From a virus: a stretch of DNA of 20,264 nucleotides. The stretch's first letter is position 1. Each line of letters opens with the position of its first letter. The stretch lies in the IMG/VR virus record IMGVR_UViG_3300032287_001934, positions 1-20,264 of that record; one strand, 5' to 3'. This document shows, one piece after another, positions 1 to 12,262 of the stretch. Made by a program: the position numbers and the translations under genes. A model generated the notes under the pieces. It searched no databases. It saw nothing but the letters and a program-made list of their open reading frames with translations, and had not been told where the DNA came from.

Positions 1-78
1 AGCTACGAACTTGTCTTTGAATTTAGACAGCTCATATTTCACATGGAGAATCTGACTCAAGTCTTTCTTTTCCAACAT
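1..78 (-). CDS. Small leftward protein, 3' end beyond window (partial)
   Basis: Leftward reading frame opening with ATG at 78-76 and running off the window edge with 26 codons visible. The visible start reads MLEKKDLSQILHV, then a Lys-rich stretch, probably helical. The start is chosen because AGGAG (complement of 86-90) sits seven bases upstream inside the same start-associated sequence that precedes the four other leftward genes. A hairpin with a U-tract (93-123) lies directly upstream of this ribosome binding site. No family is recognised and no function can be offered from 26 residues. Being a real gene is supported mainly by the shared leader. Confidence 0.7.
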   Translation of the reverse strand, partial: MLEKKDLSQILHVKYELSKFKDKFVA

Positions 79-90
79 AACTAAACTCCT
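76..90 (-). promoter_or_regulatory. Start-associated sequence, copy 1 (RBS + start codon)
   Basis: Read on the minus strand, AGGAGTTTAGTTATG: a strong Shine-Dalgarno, a fixed AT-rich spacer and the start codon. The identical 15-mer recurs at 316-330 and 657-671, with variants at 912-928 and 1369-1385. Conservation of the spacer, not only of AGGAG, shows it is a repeated element. Confidence 0.85.
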
Positions 91-92
91 TT

Positions 93-123
93 AAAAAAAA
101 GAAAAGGGAGGCTTGCGCCTCCC
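93..123 (-). terminator. Intrinsic terminator-like hairpin between leftward genes
   Basis: On the minus strand, GGGAGGC - GCAA - GCCTCCC forms a perfect 7-bp stem closed by a GNRA-type tetraloop, followed by TTTTCTTTTTTTT. This is a textbook intrinsic terminator for the gene at 133-318. Only two bases separate the U-tract from the AGGAG of the next gene, so no separate promoter fits between them. Confidence 0.85.
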
Positions 124-132
124 AACCAAACA

Positions 133-318
133 TTACATCCAAGTGAGAGTAGCATCGACGAACTCGTCGAATGTACACGATTCTGGATTGAACTGTGCTG
201 TCTGCCGATGTGGCAAGAACCAGCCGATGGTGAACTGGAACTCATAACCACCGATGAATCCAATTTCCACCCAACGACGACGACCGTTGACTACACGCCA
301 ACCCTTGATAACTGTCAT
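133..318 (-). CDS. Hypothetical 61-aa leftward protein
   Basis: Small gene starting at ATG 318-316 behind the exact AGGAGTTTAGTT leader. Its ribosome binding site overlaps the last codons and stop of the preceding gene (321-659): TAG, two bases, then ATG, so translation is probably coupled. The product is rich in aromatic residues and arginine, beginning MTVIKGWRVVNGRRRW, with no membrane segment or signal peptide. No domain is recognised. Compact soluble proteins of this kind in leftward phage clusters are often early host-interaction proteins, but nothing in the sequence shows this. The overlapping frame at 81-263 lacks the conserved leader and is not preferred. Confidence 0.75.
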   Translation of the reverse strand: MTVIKGWRVVNGRRRWVEIGFIGGYEFQFTIGWFLPHRQTAQFNPESCTFDEFVDATLTWM

Positions 319-330
319 AACTAAACTCCT
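316..330 (-). promoter_or_regulatory. Start-associated sequence, copy 2
   Basis: Exact minus-strand copy of AGGAGTTTAGTTATG. Here it is embedded in the 3' end of the upstream gene: the TTTAG portion supplies that gene's TAG stop. This is the only junction in the cluster with no hairpin. Confidence 0.85.
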
Positions 331-659
331 TCTGCCTTGTTGCTATCAATCGTCCACCCAAGGTGGATCGCCAACTTACGAGTCACAAACATTCTTACTC
401 CGCGTCCCTTGCGGTCTTCACCGTATGCCATTGCGGTCCAATCTGTATCCTCGTCGTATGCGAGGTCGATTGGGAGGAGGACAACCATAAGCGTAGGGAT
501 ATTACGCCAAGTCAAGGGAACACCACGCTTCTGGTCAACGTGAAGGCAACATCTATGGTGCTTCACAATCCATTTCTTGTCATCAAGTTTGACATACTGC
601 GGGTCAATCCCGTAATGTTTACGGGCATACAACATCTCGACTGGCGTAACTTTCTGCAT
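321..659 (-). CDS. Hypothetical 112-aa leftward protein
   Basis: Starts at ATG 659-657 behind an exact AGGAGTTTAGTT leader and stops at TAG 323-321, two bases before the next start codon. The protein is soluble-looking, with a positively charged N-terminal half (YVKLDDKKWIVKHH, two adjacent cysteines at 37-38) and an acidic DLAYDEDTDW segment around residue 65. The arrangement of short strands suggests a small alpha/beta or all-beta fold, but I recognise no family. It lies between a hairpin/U-tract (674-700) upstream and a coupled gene downstream, so it and the 61-aa gene form one two-gene unit. A competing plus-strand frame (363-665) has no ribosome binding site and is rejected. Confidence 0.75.
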   Translation of the reverse strand: MQKVTPVEMLYARKHYGIDPQYVKLDDKKWIVKHHRCCLHVDQKRGVPLTWRNIPTLMVVLLPIDLAYDEDTDWTAMAYGEDRKGRGVRMFVTRKLAIHLGWTIDSNKAEGV

Positions 660-671
660 AACTAAACTCCT
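657..671 (-). promoter_or_regulatory. Start-associated sequence, copy 3
   Basis: Exact minus-strand AGGAGTTTAGTTATG. Identity with copy 1 continues upstream through the AA and U-tract, 25 bp in all (657-681 versus 76-100), so the whole junction is duplicated. Confidence 0.85.
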
Positions 672-673
672 TT

Positions 674-700
674 AAAAAAAAGAAGAGGGCTTGCGCCCTC
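674..700 (-). terminator. Intrinsic terminator-like hairpin between leftward genes
   Basis: On the minus strand, GAGGGC - GCAA - GCCCTC gives a perfect 6-bp stem with the same GCAA tetraloop as the hairpin at 93-123, followed by TTCTTTTTTTT. The U-tract ends three bases before the AGGAG of the gene at 321-659. It lies just after the stop of the gene at 705-914. Confidence 0.82.
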
Positions 701-704
701 CGTA

Positions 705-914
705 CTAGTGGCGAGTGACCTCGTTGTTCACGTAGATGTCGTTGCGCATCTGTTCAAGTTCCGCTTGATGCTGTCGCTCAACTTCACGGTCCATATCTTT
801 ACCAACCTCAACCATGATGAACCCAAGGATAAAGATAACAATACACGCAATGATTGCACGTACATCGTCTTTGTAGATGTATGTTGTTCCGAGCTTGATG
901 ATAGGTGACTTCAT
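705..914 (-). CDS. Small single-span membrane protein (69 aa)
   Basis: Starts at ATG 914-912 with AGGAG at 928-924 and a slightly longer spacer variant (TTAGTTATT) of the shared leader. Residues ~18-37 (RAIIACIVIFILGFIMVEV) form one clear transmembrane helix after a short N-terminus. A strongly charged, probably coiled-coil tail follows (residues ~38-62, rich in Glu, Arg and Gln). No known family is recognised. A one-span protein with a charged helical tail could act at the host membrane (superinfection exclusion, membrane anchoring, lysis control), but the sequence does not discriminate. Hairpin/U-tract elements flank it on both sides. The plus-strand frame over the same bases is a shadow. 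Confidence 0.8.
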   Translation of the reverse strand: MKSPIIKLGTTYIYKDDVRAIIACIVIFILGFIMVEVGKDMDREVERQHQAELEQMRNDIYVNNEVTRH

Positions 915-928
915 AATAACTAACTCCT
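912..928 (-). promoter_or_regulatory. Start-associated sequence variant, copy 4
   Basis: Minus-strand AGGAGTTAGTTATTATG. It keeps AGGAGTT and TAGTTAT but differs by small indels from the 15-mer of copies 1-3. The U-tract of the hairpin at 929-960 abuts AGGAG directly. Confidence 0.7.
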
Positions 929-960
929 AAAAAAAATAACCACGAATGCATTCCGTGGTT
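929..960 (-). terminator. Second of two tandem terminator-like hairpins
   Basis: On the minus strand, AACCACG pairs with CGTGGTT (7 bp) around a loop that contains the palindrome AATGCATT. An A and then eight Ts follow. It is downstream of the hairpin at 969-1003, giving two tandem signals between the 119-aa gene and the membrane-protein gene. Confidence 0.7.
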
Positions 961-968
961 TGTAGATT

Positions 969-1003
969 AAAAAATCCTACCCGGCATTGTGTACCGGGTA
1001 GGA
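969..1003 (-). terminator. Intrinsic terminator after the 119-aa gene
   Basis: Perfect 10-bp stem on the minus strand, TCCTACCCGG / CCGGGTAGGA, with a 9-base loop, followed by six Ts. It begins eight bases after the stop of the gene at 1012-1371, as expected for its transcription terminator. Confidence 0.85.
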
Positions 1004-1011
1004 GTGGGGCT

Positions 1012-1371
1012 TTACAGCCCCTTGCGAACCGAGCGGTAGCCAGACCGCATCGCCGACAGTTGCTTGTCGGACTCCCTTACAACGGTGTCGATACGAGAAC
1101 CATTGTGCTGTGCAATGAACACCGACCAGTCCATCAAGTCCTCTTCAGGGGCAATGTGGCGCAAAACGTCGATGAAAAACTTGTCAATAGCCTCTTTAGC
1201 CGCTTCGGTTGAAGTATGACCCATGCGAATCATTGCATCGTTTTTGTTAGCGAACGCCTTGACAGACTCAAGGTGGTGATTCGTCAACATCAAGCCTTCA
1301 TTCTCAATCTCATTGACAATCGCGAGTGTATACGCGGTGATAACCTTTTCGGAACGTGTAAAAACTGCCAT
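1012..1371 (-). CDS. Hypothetical 119-aa protein, first gene of leftward cluster
   Basis: Starts at ATG 1371-1369 behind AGGAGAGTTTAGTT, a variant of the shared leader with two extra bases. It ends eight bases before a strong terminator. The product appears fully alpha-helical and soluble (for example STEAAKEAIDKFFIDVLRHI around residues 53-72), with mixed charge and a basic C-terminus. No family is recognised. Its codons favour C- and G-ending forms more than most rightward genes do, as do its leftward neighbours, which may mean high expression. As promoter-proximal gene of the cluster it is presumably the most strongly transcribed. Its leader contains the large hairpin at 1417-1457. Confidence 0.78.
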   Translation of the reverse strand: MAVFTRSEKVITAYTLAIVNEIENEGLMLTNHHLESVKAFANKNDAMIRMGHTSTEAAKEAIDKFFIDVLRHIAPEEDLMDWSVFIAQHNGSRIDTVVRESDKQLSAMRSGYRSVRKGL

Positions 1372-1385
1372 AACTAAACTCTCCT
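1369..1385 (-). promoter_or_regulatory. Start-associated sequence variant, copy 5
   Basis: Minus-strand AGGAGAGTTTAGTTATG, with a 2-base insertion relative to copies 1-3. Immediately upstream on the same strand the half-motif GTTTAGTTTAGGAG continues the theme. Confidence 0.75.
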
Positions 1386-4571: not shown

Positions 4572-4652
4572 GCCCCGGTGGTGGAACGGTAGACACGACA
4601 GACTTAAAATCTGTTACCGCAAGGTGTACGGGTTCGAGTCCCGTCTGGGGCA
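4572..4652 (+). tRNA. tRNA-Leu(UAA)
   Basis: An 81-base class II tRNA. Acceptor GCCCCGG/CTGGGGC has one G-U pair. The D-arm region is GTGG-AACGGTAGA-CACG. The anticodon stem ACAGA/TCTGT encloses CTTAAAA, giving anticodon TAA. The variable arm TACCGCAAGGTG is long, as expected for leucine, and the T arm is ACGGG-TTCGAGT-CCCGT. The discriminator is A4652 and the CCA is not encoded. The thyX ribosome binding site begins two bases later. Confidence 0.96.
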
Positions 4653-6880: not shown

Positions 6881-9800
6881 ATGGCCTCAGCACTATACAA
6901 CGCAATGATTGCAGCCGAAGAAGAAGATAAGAAAAAAGCTGCTCCAAAATCTGGACGTGCAAAAGCAGCAGCTGCAGCTGAGGCCAAAGATCCCGGCAAT
7001 ACAAATGCCAAGTTTTCTAAAACACCTGACAAGAAGCCATTAACTGGTGAAGCATCAAAGTTATTGGGTGGAGAAAAATCCACCCTGATGCGTGGTGAAT
7101 CAACACCATTTATGTCAGATAGTTTACGTGGACAAGGTAGTTCTTTGTTAAGTGGACAGCAATCTCCATTACTTGGAGGAGAGTCCACGCAATTATCTAC
7201 GCCATTATTAGGTGGTCAGTCATCCCCTTTGGCAAACGTGTATGGTCCACGTTCAGCTCAACCTAGAATGCAGGGTCAATCGTCAAACTACCCTTTGACG
7301 TATGACATGGTTGAATCAATTGTTGGCCCATTATCTCCGGGTATGCGCACTAGACTTGGTGAACCCGGTATGGTGCGAGGGCAAGCTGGGACACGAGGTG
7401 AAGGAGTTGAGTTCCGTAAGCCAGCAACATTGACACCAGAAGAAGAAGCCGAGGCACAACGAACTCAAAGTCAAGCAGATCTATATACTAAAGACTTTAC
7501 GCAATGGGAAAAGGAACGATTACGTCGCGAATCGCAACCTAGTGTTCAACTTACGGGCAATATGCAACGGCCAATACCGCTTGGCCCACGACCTAATGCA
7601 GCAGACTATGTTGGTCAAGGCAAAACCGGAACGCCATCAGACCCGGCAGCAGTTGCACCTGCACCAGTAAAAGCATCTGGTATGTTTGGGAAATTCCTGA
7701 CAAAACCTGATAGTGCGACAGATCCAAATGCACGTACTCAGAATATTGAGACACGTACAGCTGACGCATTACCGCGAGCTGATGTACAAGCCCCAACTGA
7801 TGTAATTGGGCAAAAAACAAATATAAATGCAGATGATTTTATCGGCGGTATAGCTGGTAAAGAAGTGTCAATAATTAATTCGGCAAAAAAGTTTGAAAAC
7901 AATATTGTTGCAGGAATATCTCCAGCACGTGCTGCTAAATTAATTTTACAGTCAACAGACTATGACGAGTCGAACCCATTCCACGCAGCATTGCGTGTGT
8001 TTGATCAAGTTGCATCTGGTCCAGATAAAAAACGTGCAGAAGTTGCTAAGCAAGGCATGGTTGCACTTACGGATTACTTTACTCGTGGTGCATCTGGTAA
8101 GTCTGGTCACAATGAAACAACATTACGGTCTGCGGTGGAATATTTAAATCTTTCTACTATGCCGGGTATGACCGAGTCTAATGCACGTAATTCTTTCGAT
8201 GAATTACTTCCTGTTATGACGGAAGAGGGAAGTCGCTTACGTCAATTCTTTGGATCATCAACGCAACAGCAAGCAACGCGTACTGCCATAAAAACAGCAT
8301 CAATGGCTGGAATTGTGACTACTGCATTAAACAATGTTGCGCAAAATGTAATTAATCGCATGCCAAGTGGTGAGGCTCCAGCAATGAAGTCTGCTAGAGA
8401 CAGAGCATTGCGAGTATTAGCGCCGCTAACTACAGCTAATCCCGGTGAACCTGCAATTAGATGGATGGATTCTGATCCACTTAGAAGTAACTTAGCAAAC
8501 GACTTGTTGTTTGAAACACAACGTTTAATGGGTGGAGATTCTATTGCATCTATAAAAAACCTACAGGATCAAATTGAAAACGGACGTATTGCAAGAACGT
8601 TCGGTGGGCAGTTTGATGTTAGATCTACGCTAACCCAGATTACACAACCTAATTATGCAGGACGTGAGGCTGAGTATTTGCGAGATATGGATCTTGCTGA
8701 TCAAGCAGAGGCTTCAGGAGATAAGGTTAAAGCTGCAAAATTAGCTGCTCCATATCACACAACTGCAGCACTTCAGATGATGTATGGAACAGATGAAGTT
8801 GAAGGATACGAATCTGGAAGAGCTATTGGTGTAAGTAGTGGCCTCGGTGGAAACCTTAAATTACGTGATGCAAAATTACGGCGACAAGAAGTAATTGGAG
8901 AAATTACACGTAATCAAGAACCACTTAAAACTAATTTAACTCCAGTGCAAATGCTTGGCACTGTATTTGCACAAAACGGAGCAGATAAAACATTACTCAA
9001 ATTTGGATTACCTTTTTTTGGCGGGACCGTTCAATTTGGCGGAATGAATGAAAACGCTGGATATATTCGTAGTTATGACATTCCAAATCATCCGGGAATG
9101 AAACTTACTTTGAATGTTGCTGAAGGAAAGCGAGCCATCAATCCTATTACAGGAGCTGTAATGGGAGCTGAATCTCTTGATGCGTCAAACAACAAAGATA
9201 TTCAAAAGATTTTAAATCAACTAGCAGAGTCGCGTGATCCAGCAGCAATGCTTGAGAGATCTGTAATCAAAAGCACATTAGGTCCCACTGCTGAAAAATA
9301 CGAGTTTGGAATTATTGAAGCATCAAAAGATAAAGTTGGTGCGTCAGATGATTTTGCTAAATTAATGGGTGGATACCGAAGTTACAGTACTGCTGGAGAT
9401 CAAGGTAAATTTTCAGCTGATGTAACCGCAGACATGCAATCGATGTTTAAGCTGCCAATTGGTTCTGACGGCATGCCATACATTGATGATAATAGCCAAC
9501 AGTTATACGACATGGCTGTGCGTGTAAAAACATCACTTGATGAAAGTTTGCGTAACTACGAAGAAAAAGACGGTAAGTATGTTTTCTCCGGTAAGGAGAA
9601 TAAGCGTGAATTACCATTAGTATTATCGCAAGAACAATACGATTCGTTACGTGCAACACAACAACAATTTACATCTATGGTGCGTGGTGCTGACGCAATT
9701 CGTGAGTCACTTGGTGTAACTGGTGGAGCTGTTGGATTTCGTGTGCAAAACGGAGTCCCGATATATTCGCAACCACTAGCAGTAACTGGCGACAATAGGT

Positions 9801-12262
9801 TTAAACAGGTATCTACATTTCTTGATGCGTGGGTAAATAAAAAGTCCGGCGCACCAGATTTCACTAAGCTATTTGAAGGCATTGATATCCAGCAAGGAGC
9901 TAAGTTTTCAAAGACTGTGATGATGTATGACGTTGATCAGGATGGGCAGCCAATTATCGACAAACGTCATTTGCGATCATATGAAGTAAATGCAGATGGA
10001 ACTGTTAATGTACGGCAGTTTAGGTTAACTGACGCAAAAGCAGCAGGTGGTGTAGAGTCGGGCGACAAGAAAGTAACAGGCGGATTTAAGGAGTTTGCTG
10101 CAGATGAAGTAGCAAAACGTTTACGTGGAAGCAACTTTAAAGAAGGTTATACAGAAGTAACTGCAGAAGGCGGAACGCCTCGTACTGTATCAGTACCAGC
10201 TAACGATGTCGCAGTCACAACAGGTGTGTCAACCGAAAAGTCAAAAGCAGCATCGTCTGGACGATATGGATTGTCTGGTACATATTTATACCAGACGTTT
10301 ATGGCAACACATCGCCAAATAAATTCTGGTCTTAAATTAGATGGAGCTGCCGAATCTTTTGCTAGAAGCATTTTAGGTACTAATGACAAAGATGTTATTG
10401 ATAACTTAAAAGAACAAGGTATAACTCCAGACCAATTAAAAACTATTACTACAAATTTGAATCGCACACAGGGTGCGCAATTACAGATGTGGCTACAGGT
10501 TTCTGATCCTGCTAAATTTACCCCAGTTGGACGTGCAGCTGGAACAATGAATGCTACATCAGACCCACGACGCACAAGTGACTCTGTGTCTGATAGTGCA
10601 ATTAGGTCGGATGAGCGTACTGCAAGGCGTAGTATTTCGGACATTGTTGTAACTCGTAATGCTAATGTGTGGGATTCGGTGACTGGCTCTGCATTAAAAA
10701 TGTATGAGGATGAAGGACAATCCAAAAATTCTCAAGCAGAACAAGTTGATCGTATTACTAAAAAGGTTTTAGAAAATGCGGTTGTCGATCCAGAGTTAGA
10801 TGCAGTATTTAGGAAGAATGTAAAAGCATACGTAACATCACTTGTTTATAACGATGAAGTGTCACGCGCACCGGGTTTTGAATTTATAGGTGATTTACAA
10901 GATTTTGCTGATGAAACAGCTAAAACTAATGTAGAAGAGGGTAATTACAGCACAACAAAACGAACTGGTGCTGGAGTAACAATTGCTGATGGTCGTGGAA
11001 CAGCGGCTGACAGACGACAACGTGTTGTCCGTGGTTTCTTGCCAGCAGTGCAGACGTCGTTAGATCTTATTAATTTTAATGAGAATAGCCAAGCCATTAA
11101 GTCTATTAAACTTGGTGGTAAACAGTCTGGAGAACTTGCATTAGTAGATACATTGCGAACTAAGTATCTAAATGAAACAGATGGTGCAGCAAAACGTACT
11201 CTATTTACTCAATTATACAAAGCAGTACAAAAACTAGAAGCTGCTGGTTATGCAATGCCAGATAACGAAACAGCTGAATTTAGAGCACCAATTGGACAAC
11301 AAGGTGCATCTGTTGCAGCTGCACGAAGTAATAGAACTCCAGCGCAGTTAGCTGCAGATGAGCGCAAGCGCAAGGTAATTAATGCTGCATTAGCAAAACG
11401 TGCTGGCACAACACCTCCACCTGATGATGCTCCAGTTAAACGTACAGTTAAATTATCTGCTGTAGACACTAAAGGTAAGCCAATTGATGTCTTACTTGAT
11501 GTTGACCCAGAGGAAGTAAAGTCTGGCCTCCGTCGCGTTTATCGAAAAGTAAATGGTGAATGGGTTCCTGTAATGTCAGGCGGAAAACCAAAAATGATTC
11601 CGGCTGTAGTTCAGCCAGAAGAAGTTGTAGATCCAACTGTACCAAAGGATTTAACTGTAGACACAAAAGTACGAACAGGTGCGAACATAAGACGTACTGC
11701 ATTACCTGCAGGATTAACACTGATAGTTAGAACAAGTAAAAGTGGAAAGGCAAATGGGCCTGTATTCAATCAAGCTTTTATTGGTCAAGTGGTTCAAGAT
11801 GTAATGGGACAAGTACCTGAAGGTACTGATCCAAAGCTTGCAATGGAAAACATATTTAGAACTATTGCAAGAAAAAATGGACGTAAACCAGAAGATTGGA
11901 AATCATTTTTTAAAGAGTCAGGATTATCAATTGTAGTGCCAGCCAATGCATCCGAGTTCAAGGCAAAGGCTGGAGATGCACACAATCTTGATGCTTTGAA
12001 AAAAGAGTACATCAAACAAGGTGGAACAGAGGAAAAGTGGAATAGCCTAAAACCGGGTGCAGATAGTGTTACACGGGAAGTTGTACGTATGTTCAAACAA
12101 CAAAGCACTCCAACTAAACCTGCAAGTCTACCAGCACCTAAAAGTGGGACTAAAGGTAAATCAGGTAAAGGTCCAATAGTTGGCGCTACAGCATTCACAC
12201 TATTGAATCTACTAGGCGATCAGATAAAGAGGAATGAGCAAAATGCCACAGGGAAAAAATAA
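6881..12262 (+). CDS. Giant 1793-aa protein, probable internal virion/ejection protein
   Basis: By far the largest gene of the window. The visible architecture starts with an Ala/Lys/Glu-rich N-terminus (1-40) and seven octapeptide-like repeats of form G-E/Q-x-S-x-L-L-x (55-119). A charged Pro-rich segment reaches ~300. A long, mostly helical soluble body with many Gln and Asp residues spans ~310-1430. A Pro/Lys-rich region (~1490-1600) and a basic Pro/Ser/Gly linker (~1742-1763) follow. The protein ends in a hydrophobic helix (VGATAFTLLNLL, 1767-1778) followed by GDQIKRNE. I recognise no catalytic motif: no clear transglycosylase, peptidase or phage RNA-polymerase signature. Size, repeats and position before terS suggest an ejected internal protein. 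The ribosome binding site is weak (AGTAGGT). Confidence 0.85.
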   Translation: MASALYNAMIAAEEEDKKKAAPKSGRAKAAAAAEAKDPGNTNAKFSKTPDKKPLTGEASKLLGGEKSTLMRGESTPFMSDSLRGQGSSLLSGQQSPLLGGESTQLSTPLLGGQSSPLANVYGPRSAQPRMQGQSSNYPLTYDMVESIVGPLSPGMRTRLGEPGMVRGQAGTRGEGVEFRKPATLTPEEEAEAQRTQSQADLYTKDFTQWEKERLRRESQPSVQLTGNMQRPIPLGPRPNAADYVGQGKTGTPSDPAAVAPAPVKASGMFGKFLTKPDSATDPNARTQNIETRTADALPRADVQAPTDVIGQKTNINADDFIGGIAGKEVSIINSAKKFENNIVAGISPARAAKLILQSTDYDESNPFHAALRVFDQVASGPDKKRAEVAKQGMVALTDYFTRGASGKSGHNETTLRSAVEYLNLSTMPGMTESNARNSFDELLPVMTEEGSRLRQFFGSSTQQQATRTAIKTASMAGIVTTALNNVAQNVINRMPSGEAPAMKSARDRALRVLAPLTTANPGEPAIRWMDSDPLRSNLANDLLFETQRLMGGDSIASIKNLQDQIENGRIARTFGGQFDVRSTLTQITQPNYAGREAEYLRDMDLADQAEASGDKVKAAKLAAPYHTTAALQMMYGTDEVEGYESGRAIGVSSGLGGNLKLRDAKLRRQEVIGEITRNQEPLKTNLTPVQMLGTVFAQNGADKTLLKFGLPFFGGTVQFGGMNENAGYIRSYDIPNHPGMKLTLNVAEGKRAINPITGAVMGAESLDASNNKDIQKILNQLAESRDPAAMLERSVIKSTLGPTAEKYEFGIIEASKDKVGASDDFAKLMGGYRSYSTAGDQGKFSADVTADMQSMFKLPIGSDGMPYIDDNSQQLYDMAVRVKTSLDESLRNYEEKDGKYVFSGKENKRELPLVLSQEQYDSLRATQQQFTSMVRGADAIRESLGVTGGAVGFRVQNGVPIYSQPLAVTGDNRFKQVSTFLDAWVNKKSGAPDFTKLFEGIDIQQGAKFSKTVMMYDVDQDGQPIIDKRHLRSYEVNADGTVNVRQFRLTDAKAAGGVESGDKKVTGGFKEFAADEVAKRLRGSNFKEGYTEVTAEGGTPRTVSVPANDVAVTTGVSTEKSKAASSGRYGLSGTYLYQTFMATHRQINSGLKLDGAAESFARSILGTNDKDVIDNLKEQGITPDQLKTITTNLNRTQGAQLQMWLQVSDPAKFTPVGRAAGTMNATSDPRRTSDSVSDSAIRSDERTARRSISDIVVTRNANVWDSVTGSALKMYEDEGQSKNSQAEQVDRITKKVLENAVVDPELDAVFRKNVKAYVTSLVYNDEVSRAPGFEFIGDLQDFADETAKTNVEEGNYSTTKRTGAGVTIADGRGTAADRRQRVVRGFLPAVQTSLDLINFNENSQAIKSIKLGGKQSGELALVDTLRTKYLNETDGAAKRTLFTQLYKAVQKLEAAGYAMPDNETAEFRAPIGQQGASVAAARSNRTPAQLAADERKRKVINAALAKRAGTTPPPDDAPVKRTVKLSAVDTKGKPIDVLLDVDPEEVKSGLRRVYRKVNGEWVPVMSGGKPKMIPAVVQPEEVVDPTVPKDLTVDTKVRTGANIRRTALPAGLTLIVRTSKSGKANGPVFNQAFIGQVVQDVMGQVPEGTDPKLAMENIFRTIARKNGRKPEDWKSFFKESGLSIVVPANASEFKAKAGDAHNLDALKKEYIKQGGTEEKWNSLKPGADSVTREVVRMFKQQSTPTKPASLPAPKSGTKGKSGKGPIVGATAFTLLNLLGDQIKRNEQNATGKK
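7040..7240 (+). repeat. Octapeptide repeat region in the giant protein
   Basis: Encodes residues 54-120. Aligned units are GEASKLLG, GEKSTLMR, GESTPFMSDSLR, GQGSSLLS, GQQSPLLG, GESTQLSTPLLG and GQSSPLAN. Two units carry the same kind of 4-residue insertion (total 12), consistent with a repeated structural module. The DNA copies have diverged, so selection is probably at protein level. Confidence 0.75.

Follow-up and report, generated by a model that had tools for sequence, protein, structure and literature searches.

The window analysed in this study, i.e., the whole 20,264-base record IMGVR_UViG_3300032287_001934, comes from a tailed phage with two divergent gene arms. The rightward genes begin at 1725 and include those for a dUTPase, a nuclease, ThyX, a single-stranded DNA-binding protein (SSB), the terminase, the portal and capsid proteins. 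The leftward arm begins at 1371 and consists of five small early genes whose functions are unassigned; these genes, and all features of the leftward arm given below, lie on the minus strand. The first is F06 (1012-1371, 119 amino acids), which is not an SSB. It is followed by F01 (705-914, 69 amino acids), probably a membrane protein judging from a hydrophobic stretch, F12 (321-659, 112 amino acids), F03 (133-318, 61 amino acids) and F07 (1-78), which is partial and runs off the window end. The subject of this study is a short repeat found just before the starts of these five genes, referred to here as the start-associated sequence (SAS), together with the RNA structure in the leader of F06.

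As the original prediction had claimed, the five leftward genes share a near-identical leader. Exact copies are located at 76-90 (AGGAGTTTAGTT-ATG, preceding F07), 316-330 (AGGAGTTTAGTTATG, preceding F03) and 657-671 (AGGAGTTTAGTTATG, preceding F12), and variants at 912-928 (AGGAGTTAGTTATTATG, i.e., AGGAGTTAGTTATT-ATG, preceding F01) and 1369-1385 (AGGAGAGTTTAGTTATG, i.e., AGGAGAGTTTAGTT-ATG, preceding F06). The copy at 316-330 contains the TAG stop codon of the upstream gene (GGAGTTTAG), and the variants TTTAATT and TTCGATT of the F07 leader are retained in relatives. When three or fewer mismatches to AGGAGTTTAGTTATG were allowed, five matches were found on the minus strand, compared with 0.63 in dinucleotide shuffles, and 0/100 shuffles reached five. 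The sole match on the plus strand has three mismatches and is not at a start. Chance does not account for the five leaders of the window.

The same pattern was found in relatives, which were retrieved by searches with the capsid and small genes; their records were read in pieces, fully or nearly so, and their gene starts were called by our own script, with no standard caller. On the early strand of 11 records AGGAGTTTA occurred 28 times, 27 of them directly 5' of a start codon, and on the structural strand of the same records it occurred once, away from any start. Where a start has GGAG, TTTA came directly after it at 36/73 of the early starts near the promoter, at 1/32 of the distal ones and at 0/51 of the structural starts (Fisher test, 7.5e-14, in statistics that pool few, related genomes and ignore kinship). 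The distal early genes have A-rich spacers in place of TTTA. After removal of identical leaders within families, the motif was present at least once in 16 of 29 families, which are mutually unrelated, and the consensus across leaders was AAGGAG-T-T/C-T/C-A-G/A-T. Moreover, it was seen at none of 19 starts overlapping the upstream gene vs 30 of 48 non-overlapping starts (p 9e-7). The motif in relatives is therefore a true start-associated sequence, specific to the early strand and conserved past the Shine-Dalgarno core. It does not stand before rightward starts, and the relatives retain TTTA in addition to AGGAG, the two points of possible failure that could be checked. Further copies had been expected beyond position 1, and in relatives the motif is indeed repeated past the point that corresponds to the window end.

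At the starts of G009 and of the relatives with 63-67% capsid identity (G015-G023) the motif is missing, with few exceptions, and the spacers are A-rich; the start-linked motif is therefore a trait of one clade. A scan of viral contigs for the exact 15-mer gave single-copy background matches, with only 1 of 80 contigs among the matches listed being a relative, so that beyond the clade the 15-mer is not informative by itself.

An inverted repeat upstream of four of the five genes had also been predicted and is indeed present, with stems at 106-123, 684-701, 938-960 (plus 975-1003) and 1417-1457; the gene starting at 318 has none. The proposal that these repeats look like terminators stands for three of them, which carry T-tracts on the leftward strand, but not for 1417-1457, which is a pseudoknot-forming stem. 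Between F03 and F07 lies the intrinsic terminator GGGAGGC GCAA GCCTCCC followed by TTTTCTTTTTTTT (98-123), and between F01 and F12 lies GGAGGGC GCAA GCCCTCT followed by TCTTTTTTTT (676-701). The gap between F06 and F01 holds two consecutive intrinsic terminators (930-1003; stems 975-1003 and 938-960, each with a T-tract), so that two terminators, and not one as counted earlier, separate the genes at 1371 and 914. In total, a G+C-rich stem followed by a T-tract on the transcribed strand was found at four sites of the window.

The leader of F06 contains two features that the original prediction overlooked, a pseudoknot and repeats of GUUUA. The pseudoknot is of the H type and is formed by the leftward leader RNA at 1401-1457. 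Stem 1 pairs 1417-1431 with 1443-1457 (15 base pairs), the loop GTGCAACA pairs with TGTTGCAC (1401-1408) as stem 2, and the linker is 8 nucleotides long. The structure is retained in all 13 tabulated leaders, with a stem 1 of 12-18 base pairs whose inner 11 base pairs are fully paired, despite an average identity of only 41% between the stem 1 arms. The pairing of the loop with a segment that lies 7-12 bases 3' of the stem spans 6-10 bases, and 10 different pairs of loop and segment occur among the 13 leaders. The summed length of the cognate stem 2 pairings was 98, whereas permutation of the downstream segments among leaders gave 57 on average and 80 at most. When G-U and A-C wobbles were allowed equally, the stem positions showed 17 G-U and no A-C, which points to the leftward RNA as the molecule under selection. 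Besides the window, records with the pseudoknot include L285, L295, L297, L299-L301, L304, L306, L309 and L311, and an Rfam search of the control region returned no matches. An attenuator was considered as well, since in the window the 3' arm of stem 1 can pair with the upstream GTAGGTAGCG; this pairing is not retained in L025 or G013, and the idea was dropped by inspection.

Between the pseudoknot and the Shine-Dalgarno sequence of F06, the window has two copies of GTTTA, at 1390-1394 and 1385-1389. In the equivalent interval of 14 leaders, with the SAS itself excluded, 25 copies were counted vs 4.6 in dinucleotide shuffles. GTTTA reached a density of 37 per kb in the 60-base stretch that follows stem 1 and of 26 per kb in the final 20 nucleotides ahead of starts; coding sequence, intergenic sequence elsewhere and the part of the leader that precedes stem 1 each had only about 0.7 per kb. 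L297 has three near-tandem GTTTAGTTGG units after the pseudoknot. The spacer element GUUUA therefore also occurs apart from any Shine-Dalgarno sequence, a finding that a plain ribosome-binding site leaves unexplained.

Based on these results, we somewhat favour the view that the motif serves translation initiation on the leftward early mRNAs as an element specific to this clade, in which GUUUA places the genes under translational control by a putative RNA-binding factor. A strong Shine-Dalgarno core, AAGGAG, would be joined to a second RNA element, GUUUA(G/A)U, selected in its own right. The element would serve starts that are out of reach of translational coupling, mostly those right after an intrinsic terminator and, in one gene of the relatives, that after a promoter. 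A putative factor, either phage-encoded or ribosomal protein S1, would bind single-stranded GUUUA sites overlapping the ribosome-binding sites, and the pseudoknot at the head of the early mRNA may be its nucleation or entry point. The output of the small early genes could in this way be set as a group, comparable to the action of gp32 and RegA in T4. Factor binding, the identity of the factor and the choice between repression and enhancement are what we infer here, and S1 acting as an enhancer is an equally simple reading. A common regulator for the motif-bearing genes is plausible. A broader claim can be put forward only tentatively: the early arm might be a translational regulon, with the pseudoknot and GUUUA as operator and the same site in the Shine-Dalgarno leaders joining unrelated genes under one control, a strategy like that of gp32 and RegA but independently invented in a group of uncultured phages with distant ties to actinobacteriophages.

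The closest parallel in architecture is the operator of T4 gene 32, in which a pseudoknot is the nucleation site of gp32, which then spreads across the UUAA(A) repeats that overlap the ribosome-binding site (PMC3014915). Here, too, a pseudoknot lies 5' of the ribosome-binding site, and repeats of a short, unstructured U/A-rich motif come after it and overlap the site. However, T4 controls its own SSB gene in this manner, whereas the SSB gene of the present phage (5303-5692, its start overlapping thyX) is on the other strand in the rightward arm, and the gene downstream of the pseudoknot is F06. The repeats also differ, being GUUUA and not UUAA(A); they extend to the leaders of further genes, and there is no homology between the two systems. 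RegA and RegB of T4 act on many early genes at the ribosome-binding region (PMC3014915). The likeness lies in early-gene-wide control at GGAG or just 5' of AUG, with the sequence 3' of GGAG being of importance (PMC3014915). On the other hand, RegB prefers sites with an A-rich 3' flank and those of RegA are AAUU-rich, whereas the flank here is UUUAGUU. Pfam and PHROG scans, which took in only a minority of the distal early-arm proteins, revealed no relatives of RegA or RegB, and the small early proteins matched no Pfam or PHROG family.

Several points weigh against translational control through GUUUA. The distance from GGAG to the start codon is variable, mostly 5 to 10 nucleotides; the position of TTTA is accordingly fixed by GGAG and not by the start codon. 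The motif precedes F03 in the window but is missing from this gene in L282 and L290, i.e., it is gained or lost among genes. Stem 1, at 12-18 base pairs, is long for a linker of 8-9 nucleotides, which makes the pseudoknot geometry tight. The T-rich spacer could merely favour initiation by remaining unstructured. Furthermore, the gene starts in relatives rest on a home-made caller, and the p-values are indicative only, since the relatives do not count as independent genomes.

Among the other explanations, the one that survives best places the function in the hairpins and the leader RNA, which would act as a cis antiterminator like put of HK022 or, in the case of the terminators, grade expression along the operon, with the SAS serving only to restart translation after each terminator. 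The promoter-proximal block of five relatives has 4-6 terminators per 2.5-3.7 kb, with a far lower density elsewhere. The 45-nucleotide gap between F01 and F12 contains a terminator and the motif only, leaving no room for a promoter, and with no other content in gaps of this type the downstream genes therefore need read-through, antitermination or promoters within upstream genes. The leader RNA is structured and covarying, and in HK022 the nascent leader RNA alone suppresses termination in the early genes (PMC9378689). In both phages the early transcript opens with a structured RNA and runs across several terminators (PMC9378689), but the structure and the phage group are different, and antitermination is hypothetical in the present case. 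Furthermore, the leader matches no Rfam family, promoters may lie inside upstream genes, and the conserved GTTTA spacer and its repeats are left unexplained. As the core function, termination control is possible but doubtful; it is compatible with translational control through GUUUA and may operate alongside it.

Less probable, and in our judgement unlikely as a full account, is that the motif is nothing but a strong ribosome-binding site on the boundaries of gene cassettes, where homologous recombination between repeated modules of terminator and ribosome-binding site carries one leader to unrelated small genes and the spacer owes its identity to descent rather than to selection. Traces of such exchange are present. 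The 33-nucleotide repeats at 76-108 and 657-689 are 97% identical, and close relatives differ in gene content between boundaries. G012 lacks F12 and F03, and its F01-F07 gap matches the F01-F12 gap of the window through the terminator to the motif, so that the joint falls inside the repeat; the simplest reading of this arrangement is a deletion or insertion by recombination between repeated terminator/motif modules. Some of the likeness between leaders is explained by such recombination, and the terminator/SAS boundaries likely double as recombination joints. However, the GGAGTTTA core is common to leaders with differing upstream context (terminator, promoter or upstream stop codon), it stays constant while the spacing varies, and GTTTA is repeated in the first leader without a Shine-Dalgarno sequence. 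The boundaries are, moreover, still more conserved than the flanking genes. Gaps with a terminator and the motif were more alike between relatives than the genes beside them in 41/42 comparisons, by a mean of 12.8 points, although many of the comparisons share one gap; the 97-nucleotide F06-F01 gap, for example, is 100% identical between the window and L282, the flanking genes being 84% and 83% identical.

A role as a phage transcription factor's binding site on DNA, or as a piece of a promoter, is very improbable: the motif is repeated and oriented, it follows a TTGAAT-18-TATAAT promoter in the F00 gene of relatives and the extended SAS of cluster K phages contain promoters (PMC11373665), but it is asymmetric, in register with the Shine-Dalgarno sequence and start codon and found on the mRNA-sense strand only, and most copies lie just 3' of a terminator without any -10/-35 sequence.

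A resemblance to the SAS and extended SAS (ESAS) of the cluster K mycobacteriophages had been suggested, and it holds as an analogy of distribution and position but not for the sequence or for the hairpins, which are RNA structures here. The cluster K SAS has a 13-bp consensus, GGGATAGGAGCCC, which occurs with two or fewer mismatches near start codons (PMC3203893). In both cases a short asymmetric repeat containing AGGAG is found a few bases from the starts of several gene families in one orientation, in the non-structural arm only and mostly at genes not overlapping the upstream neighbour (PMC3203893). Conservation past the pairing with 16S rRNA and inverted repeats upstream of a subset of copies are also common to both (PMC3203893). 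The sequences differ, however, with GGGATAGGAGCCC there and AGGAGTTTAGTT here, only AGGAG being shared, and the phages are unrelated; in addition, GUUUA here also occurs separate from the Shine-Dalgarno sequence. The ESAS are 17-bp imperfect inverted repeats with a common consensus that vary without RNA pairing and have SigA-like -35/-10 promoters (PMC11373665), and they have been interpreted as DNA sites or promoters (PMC3203893; PMC11373665). The repeats of the present phage are instead terminators that carry T-tracts and, in one case, a pseudoknot stem that covaries, with no -10/-35 sequence found between them. Since distribution and position match but the sequence and repeat type do not, the present motif is an analogue and not a member of the cluster K SAS.

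Being an independent case, with a second sequence, in another phage group and in a clear RNA context of terminators, pseudoknot and GUUUA repeats, the present motif shows that start-linked repeats extending past the Shine-Dalgarno sequence arose more than once. If the translational regulon is real, it would hint at the role of the still unexplained cluster K SAS. Binding of GUUUA by a phage or ribosomal protein, if it takes place, could allow a single RNA signal to switch many small early genes at once. The terminator/SAS boundaries, in turn, point to a likely path for the exchange of small early genes.

Several further observations were made on the early arm. F03, which is found in most relatives, gave a confident, compact structure model (pLDDT 90) with a four-strand sheet plus a helix, and comparison of this model with the PDB yielded no fold matches at E<0.001. 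The F00 gene of relatives has its own conserved TTGAAT-18-TATAAT promoter preceding the motif. The F02-F00 gap (about 130 bases, in L279 before 6001, with equivalents in relatives) is 85-99% conserved and holds two G-rich hairpins in addition to this promoter, and the F00 protein showed only weak helix-turn-helix resemblances.

The portal protein matches those of phages of Arthrobacter, Microbacterium and Cellulosimicrobium at about 23% identity only. An actinobacterial host is a guess and not a result, because this similarity is weak and distant. A search of bacterial genomes with ThyX gave two distant matches only. Two tRNA genes, tRNA-Asn(GTT) at 2885-2958 and tRNA-Leu(TAA) at 4572-4652, lie amid the rightward genes, and in a near-identity search of phage records tRNA alone was matched. 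An open frame of 1793 residues (6881-12262) without Pfam matches is located between the early-type genes and the terminase, and its product is possibly a virion or ejected protein. Finally, the palindrome TTTCTCC-CATC-GGAGAAA lies at 1633-1650 between the divergent arms and is largely retained in the aligned relatives; it is possibly an operator for a divergent promoter.

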